Positions 20,692 to 21,240 of a stretch of DNA of 64,000 nucleotides are shown piece by piece. The first letter of the stretch is position 1. Every line of letters begins with the position of its first letter. Where the stretch lies: positions 124,001 to 188,000 of the forward strand of contig SCRM01000008.1 in assembly GCA_004298045.1 (NCBI GenBank), in the 5' to 3' direction. Source of the DNA: Rhodanobacter sp. (GTDB lineage: Bacteria; Pseudomonadota; Gammaproteobacteria; Xanthomonadales; Rhodanobacteraceae). The position numbers and the translations under genes are program-made. The notes below the pieces were generated by a model. That model saw only the letters and a program-made list of their open reading frames with translations, was not told where the DNA came from and ran no database searches.

Positions 20692-21240
20692 TTACTTCTT
20701 GCTGGTCTTGCTCGGCTTGCTGGCCTTGGTGGCCTTGACCACCTTGGCCGCCGCCGGCTTCTTGGCCGCGACCTTCTTGGCCGCCGGCTTCTTTGCAACT
20801 TTCTTGGCAGTGGTTTTCTTCGCCGCGGCAGGCTTCTTGGCCGCGACCTTCTTTACGGCAGCCTTCTTTGCTGCCGGCTTCTTTGCCACCGGCTTCTTCG
20901 CGGCGGCTTTCTTGGCGACGGTCTTCTTCGCGACCGTCTTCTTGGCGGCCGCTTTCTTGGCAGCGGCCGGTTTCTTTGCAGCAGGTTTCTTGGCAGTGGT
21001 AACCATGGTTCGTCTCAGCTCCTCATCGGTTGGCAGTGGTTGCCCAGTAAAAGCGTGGAGGAACGCCTCCACCAGCAAGTCGCTGTTGGTGGCGTGCCGC
21101 AGATTTTTCACCTGACGTTCTGTGCGCAGGTCGGAAAGCGTTCTCAGTACATGCAGCGGAATCGAGACCGTGATCTTGCGAACCGCGTTGGCCTTCTCGC
21201 CATGCTCGACATACGGTGCGATGAATTTCGGTGTTGCCAT
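20692..21240 (-). CDS. metJ: MetJ-type methionine repressor fused to a histone-H1-like AKK-repeat tail
   Basis: 182 residues in two parts. Residues 1-78 closely follow E. coli MetJ. They include the [20 protein letters not shown] segment whose beta-strand contacts operator DNA, and the helix-A and SAM-pocket region [20 protein letters not shown] and [18 protein letters not shown]. The final 25 or so residues of MetJ are replaced by a tail of about 100 residues. The tail is almost only Ala, Lys, Pro, Val and Thr in [13 protein letters not shown] repeats, like AlgP or bacterial H1-like proteins. It probably represses methionine genes with SAM as corepressor, with the tail adding non-specific DNA binding. 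An ATG at 21006 ([12 protein letters not shown]) lies exactly at the junction with a GAGGAG sequence upstream. Tandem met boxes lie about 150 bp upstream of the gene. Confidence 0.9.

Follow-up and report, generated by a model that had tools for sequence, protein, structure and literature searches.

How many proteins does a metJ gene make when its reading frame runs on into a histone-like tail? The question is raised by a stretch of 64,000 nucleotides from contig SCRM01000008.1 of a Rhodanobacter sp. assembly (GCA_004298045.1), the whole of which is called the window here. The features of the locus are collected in Table 1. A textbook metabolic repressor bears a histone-like tail not only in the window but in every sequence of the family that was read, and the gene seems to make the tail separately too.

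Table 1. Features of the metJ locus, in positions of the window.
Feature	Position	Strand	Basis
Full-length open reading frame, 182 amino acids: MetJ core and K/A-rich tail	20692..21240	-	ATG start; Pfam, NCBIfam and PDB matches
Ribbon-helix-helix core of MetJ, residues 1-77, lacking classical MetJ's C-terminal helix	21010..21240	-	Pfam, NCBIfam, PDB
Conserved element, codon 63 to just before the internal ATG, silent sites almost invariant	21007..21054	-	Alignment of family sequences; one copy in own genome
GAGGAG, Shine-Dalgarno-like, 12 nt ahead of the internal ATG	21019..21024	-	Alignment; pairing with 16S tail
Internal ATG (residue 79)	21004..21006	-	ATG there in 58/59
Proposed nested gene for the free tail, starting at the internal ATG, 104 amino acids	20692..21006	-	Junction ATG in 58/59; predicted product
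Promoter-like block TTGACA-17 nt-TAGCTT ahead of metJ	21268..21296	-	By eye from alignment; not called by promoter scan
Two tandem met boxes, AGACGTCT GGACGTCC (plus-strand reading)	21392..21407	.	One mismatch to search pattern

The fusion itself is real: MetJ residues 1-77 are joined in frame to a tail of 105 residues, and it is neither an assembly error nor chance, because it is present in 59 of the 59 family sequences read. The Pfam MetJ family (PF01340) covers residues 5-83 of the 182-residue protein (E 3e-34; 117.3 bits, cut-off 25), the NCBIfam model NF003622 covers residues 5-82 (122.9 against a cut-off of 110), and solved MetJ chains from the PDB align with residues 5-80 (E 1.5e-29). 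These matches bear out the sequence-only reading, which had placed MetJ at residues 1-78 and had seen the C terminus replaced by about 100 residues of the AAKKPAAKK type; the same architecture recurs in all family sequences read. As the profile matches stop at position 83-84 of MetJ profiles of 97 and 105 positions, the final part of the classical protein, helix C included, is missing. The fusion frame is the only MetJ that was found in its own genome. The operator-contact strand, also claimed earlier, is present: K22 and T24, at the positions of its residues Lys23 and Thr25, are kept in 59/59 sequences. So is R39, at the position of Arg40 (PMC2775130). An AlphaFold model made without an alignment is of low confidence (mean pLDDT 58, pTM 0.23) and carries no weight. 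A long open reading frame on the strand opposite the tail is a hydrophobic mirror of the K/A codons and was given no meaning.

SAM sensing by the fused MetJ is uncertain. Glu39 and Arg42 make strong contacts with the adenosyl group of SAM according to the part of a simulation study that was available (PMC2775130). These positions of E. coli MetJ correspond to Leu38 and Glu41 in the window protein, which thus lacks both these contacts and the helix C by which a SAM-responsive MetJ of the E. coli type would be recognized. A SAM response is in doubt because the two contact residues are replaced and helix C is lost; the earlier statement that the SAM-pocket helices were clearly present needs correcting, the pocket not being clearly intact. 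Across the 59 family sequences, Glu is retained at the first position in 36 and Arg at the second in 35. The two positions seem to change jointly in part of the family (Leu with Glu, His, Tyr or Ser), a pattern that may reflect an altered ligand response.

The tail (residues 78-182) contains 39 K and 35 A, consists of little other than K, A, V, T and P, and has a net charge of +39; it is strongly basic and probably disordered. From the junction onward, the tails of fused family sequences span 40-309 residues (median 99). K/A-rich repeats and strong positive charge are shared with the histone H1-like proteins described by HC2 (PF07382) and NF038053, but the 182-residue protein lies just below the HC2 cut-off (39.5 against 40) and far below those of the NCBIfam HC2-type profiles (NF038052, 36.4 against 135; NF038053, 34.1 against 80). 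A six-frame HC2 search of the locus gave 47.8, in an alignment that runs through a stop. The likeness to H1 may be one of composition only. Tails often finish in AKVVKATK or a variant of it (window 20692-20760 and homologues), despite differing numbers of repeats; L010-L013 are among the exceptions.

K/A-rich or K-rich tails seem to be common in this order. HC2-type matches in related genomes (L139-L154) include several other K/A-rich proteins as well as topoisomerase I-like frames with K-rich ends. A regulator with a long K/A/P-rich N-terminal extension, which we take to be DksA-like, is encoded in the Rhodanobacter genome itself (L090, contig C12, 1387-2580) and in a relative (L149, genome G055). 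In L090, an internal ATG precedes the DksA-like part. This is a second regulator fused to a histone-like stretch.

The distribution of MetJ in the order was followed by families numbered by handle, f1 being the family of the window and f12, f9 and f2 others. MetJ occurs in 64 of 99 genomes (own included), namely in 58/59 of f1, 4/4 of f12, 2/5 of f9 and 0/5 of f2, and the gene was read from all 64. The 59 family sequences comprise those of the 58 f1 genomes (26 genera, own included) and a contig, L032, titled Rhodanobacter sp. The MetJ proteins of f12 (79-81 residues; four read) and f9 (90 and 96 residues; two read) have no tail. Those of f12 (L065-L068) are short by nature, having neither helix C nor tail, and the core may be able to work without helix C. 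A wider search of f1 found MetJ in 227 of 233 genomes (226 above the cut-off) and in 26 of 26 genera, 58 of these genes being the ones read; among the matches listed, some open frames have 85-104 amino acids, several of them at contig ends (e.g. G099, G100, G105, G134). In a search across the class, five of 369 genomes gave a MetJ, three of them outside f1 with open frames of 112-118 amino acids; in the family of one of these, MetJ is present in 59/59 genomes, with open frames of 106-152 amino acids whose C termini were not each read. The 28 f1 rows group together as a single clade (support 99/100) in a tree of 42 MetJ cores, which is built from 74 columns only, so that many of its inner forks lack resolution. 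As to the phylogenetic check proposed beforehand, the fused MetJs make up one clade. No plasmid copy of the fusion was found; 15 records of the plasmid collection match the MetJ part alone.

It is at the junction of core and tail that the earlier picture of a single fusion protein has to be amended. The fusion stands but is probably not the sole product, since the junction ATG, the Shine-Dalgarno sequence and silent-site conservation point to a second, tail-only product, and the likely function changes with it. Residue 79 is encoded by ATG in 58 of 59 family sequences; the one without it, L040, has GTC GTG there and also lacks the rest of the element. The residue before the ATG is variable (T 42, D 8, none 5, I 3, A 1), and Ala follows it directly in 56/59. 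Within the element, codons ACT65 (59/59), GAG73 (58/58), GAG74 (59/59) and AGA76 (56/56) are fixed, and codons 71, 72, 75 and 77 do vary. Relative to an expectation taken as the per-amino-acid average within the same alignment, with tree shape ignored, synonymous differences over the 15 codons 63-77 are reduced to 0.41 in the fused family, compared with 1.00-1.32 for windows beginning at codons 9-42 and with 0.99 for codons 63-77 of 29 unfused enterobacterial MetJ (31 extracted, two dropped as missed by the anchor pattern). Eleven outgroup genes encode nearly the same peptide with 25-35 of 45 bases equal to the f1 consensus.

The element has a single copy in its own genome, with no extra one at up to three mismatches; searches of the f12 genomes and of the two MetJ-bearing f9 genomes did not find it. 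Together with the ATG, the element is present in 210 of 233 family genomes at up to two mismatches (reversed control, 0). Eight of the 23 genomes without a match have no MetJ hit (six), a marginal one (G260) or a lower-scoring one (G256), and are 79-93% complete. Eleven further misses belong to genera g15 (8) and g6 (3), and the four sequences read from these (L006, L009, L029, L030) retain the ATG at a spacing of 9 nt. G020 has lost the site, and G025 (L038) differs at codons 76-77 with the ATG kept. The last two, G110 and G181, are outside the set whose junctions were read. The natural experiment of a broken MetJ beside an intact element does not occur among the family genomes.

Translation signals also favour an internal start. 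The spacing between AGGAG and ATG is 12 nt in 54/59 sequences and 9 nt in 4/59. With what we take to be the sequence of the 16S tail, the duplex at the internal start reaches a median of -11.5 kcal/mol; the value for the main start is -5.7, and other in-frame positions average -3.8. None of these other positions pairs as well in the median sequence; in some relatives (e.g. L006, L009-L013), 6-14% of the other in-frame positions do. The fold energy of the 48 nt around the internal ATG is -5.6, compared with -8.0 at the main start and -12.0 elsewhere, and 3% of other positions are as open in the median sequence. The most economical reading is that a free H1-like protein is encoded by a nested, in-frame gene, with a ribosome site stronger than the repressor's own. 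Given the near-invariant ATG, the nearly frozen silent sites, the strong Shine-Dalgarno sequence, the open RNA and the 210 of 233 genomes, we consider it most likely, with a probability of roughly two in three, that one gene gives two proteins, a MetJ-tail repressor and a putative free H1-like tail.

Alternatively, the gene might make the fusion only, as one MetJ-tail protein in which the tail makes operator binding stronger or lets it spread, the codons being conserved for translation speed, for example as a pause for folding of the core. This is consistent with a single open frame, free of stops, in 59/59 sequences, and with frozen codons that include ones seldom used elsewhere in the core, such as AGA. 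However, a pause requires slow codons rather than identical ones across 26 genera, and the near-invariant ATG, the strong Shine-Dalgarno pairing and the open RNA would be left without explanation; we regard it as unlikely. It might also be suggested that no tail-only protein is made and that the element acts at the DNA or RNA level in some other way, as an internal promoter or as the target of a regulator protein or small RNA. Conservation does extend about 45 nt upstream of the ATG. Against this, an Rfam scan found no family in the element (its two weak, sub-threshold matches lie outside it), the promoter scan called no internal sigma-70-like promoter, no conserved pairing was evident by eye, the Rhodanobacter genome holds no second copy, and the block finishes at the ATG with a well-placed GAGGAG, all of which makes such a site distinctly improbable. 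A frameshift or stop at the junction, freeing a tail-less MetJ of about 75-80 residues like that directly encoded in f12, is very improbable: there is a +1-frame stop at codons 75/76 in 57/59 sequences and the four f12 loci read do encode a tail-less MetJ of 79-81 residues, but no known slippery sequence is apparent and the stop arises automatically where a Leu codon with G or A in its third position precedes a codon that begins with A.

Some apparent structures were considered and set aside. A small GGCA/TGCC pairing seen by eye in the element is broken in L011, L013, L019 and L020. A hammerhead-like look, also by eye, is ruled out because the invariant positions of the hammerhead vary. A terminator-like hairpin at 21055-21072 is strong in the Rhodanobacter genome itself; across the 59 sequences it has a mean of -3.0 against -2.8 for shuffled codons, and 7 of 100 codon shuffles were equally low.

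There is evidence that the MetJ part is linked to operators of the classical kind. Tandem met boxes give 45 hits in the Rhodanobacter genome, compared with 6 for the reversed control. They lie upstream of metJ, in the gap between metX and cysK, in the gap that separates cysG from a CysB-like LysR gene (the CysB-like match being below its cut-off), and, about 300 nt away from metE, between that gene and an ahpD-like one (MetE is truncated by the end of the locus). Other hits, in or beside unrelated genes (e.g. L070, L073-L076), may have arisen by chance. G055 has the metX site too, and G037 has the one ahead of the CysB-like gene, the cysG neighbour in G037 being assigned by eye. Within 350 nt before metJ, the best box pair lies 136-171 nt from the start codon in 58/59 sequences (L027 is the exception); 41 of the 59 pairs score at least 12 out of 16, which no reversed control reaches (maximum 11), and the other 18 fall within the control range. 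Counts in other genomes cover both strands against a reversed-pattern control, near-palindromic sites being counted on both. Among six further f1 genomes, enrichment is clear in four (G036, 56 against 2; G012, 25 against 10; G055, 19 against 2; G037, 15 against 4) and absent in two (G020, 22 against 19; G049, 8 against 18). There is none in six genomes without MetJ (G059, 1 against 4; G070, 2 against 9; G079, 2 against 12; G087, 0 against 4; G061, 0 against 9; G076, 1 against 7). Tandem boxes ahead of metJ, metX and cysG/cysB and close to metE suggest that operator binding has been retained in the MetJ part. The conserved TTGACA-17-TAGCTT block, nearer the gene than the met boxes, suggests a second promoter.

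The sequences themselves establish the fusion, its conservation in the family, the conserved junction element and the met boxes; from them we infer that both proteins are made and that the tail binds DNA, and likewise the feedback and the ligand response. A start at 21240 would give a MetJ repressor with its C-terminal helix swapped for a strongly basic tail, and a start at 21006, aided by the strong Shine-Dalgarno sequence and the open RNA, would give a small DNA-binding protein of the histone H1-like kind that consists of the tail only. The MetJ part would locate tandem met boxes before metJ and the sulfur and methionine genes, with the tail contributing a non-specific grip on DNA. The free tail would be a general nucleoid protein whose dose tracks the metJ transcript, and MetJ feedback on its own promoter would therefore also set the amount of tail. 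In favour of two products is the pattern of MetJ against methionine enzymes in proteomes of Rhodanobacter thiooxydans FW510-R12, where MetJ is up with nitrate and four methionine enzymes are down, the tail receiving no mention in the available text (PMC12146267). Against them count the 12-nt spacing, which is longer than usual, an element of about 45 nt that exceeds what a ribosome site alone needs, the 16S pairing elsewhere in some relatives, a synonymous test lacking correction for tree shape, the 18/59 met-box scores in the control range and the two of six further genomes without enrichment. More tentatively, and somewhat against the odds, the nested gene might couple sulfur and methionine status to chromosome packing throughout the family, feedback on one promoter setting the amounts of both a tailed repressor, with met boxes as its nucleation sites, and a free, nucleoid-compacting H1-like protein.

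Several known systems bear comparison. With E. coli MetJ (PF01340, NF003622) the protein has in common a homologous ribbon-helix-helix core (residues 5-83), tandem met-box operators and methionine and sulfur targets; it differs in the K/A-rich tail that stands for the C-terminal helix, in the conserved internal start and, in this genus, in the replacement of Glu39 and Arg42. Internal in-frame starts that give a second protein are familiar from the bacterial genes infB (IF2) and cheA; the case predicted here differs in that a metabolic repressor would release its histone-like tail as the second product. SamR of Xanthomonadales belongs to the same order and acts on the same target pathway but, unlike MetJ, is a SahR-like protein of the ArsR family; the available text of the same source lists no MetJ in four Xanthomonadales genomes (PMC4239095). 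By word search, Xanthomon- and Rhodanobacter are absent from the accessible text of PMC3228920, and a list of Xanthomonas campestris nucleoid proteins, as far as it was available, has several 'Histone H1' genes and no MetJ (PMC8578834). A literature search, mostly of papers free of subscription, turned up no account of a histone-tailed MetJ or of the nested start, in line with the earlier remark that no characterised protein of this architecture came to mind. The present data place MetJ in a family that two MetJ regulon surveys, in the text available, do not report. The fusion suggests that methionine metabolism and nucleoid structure are directly linked, and makes it simple to test whether operator search or spreading is altered by a non-specific basic tail. 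If the tail is also a separate protein, methionine supply could be tied to DNA packing.

Finally, two blocks of genes lie upstream of metJ in the window, at 21649-23206 (same strand as metJ) and then at 23390-26175. We take the first to be the glycine-cleavage genes gcvH and gcvT, and those beyond to be cysD/cysNC-like genes of sulfate assimilation. A GcvH-type motif is found upstream of metJ in 50 of 59 relatives.
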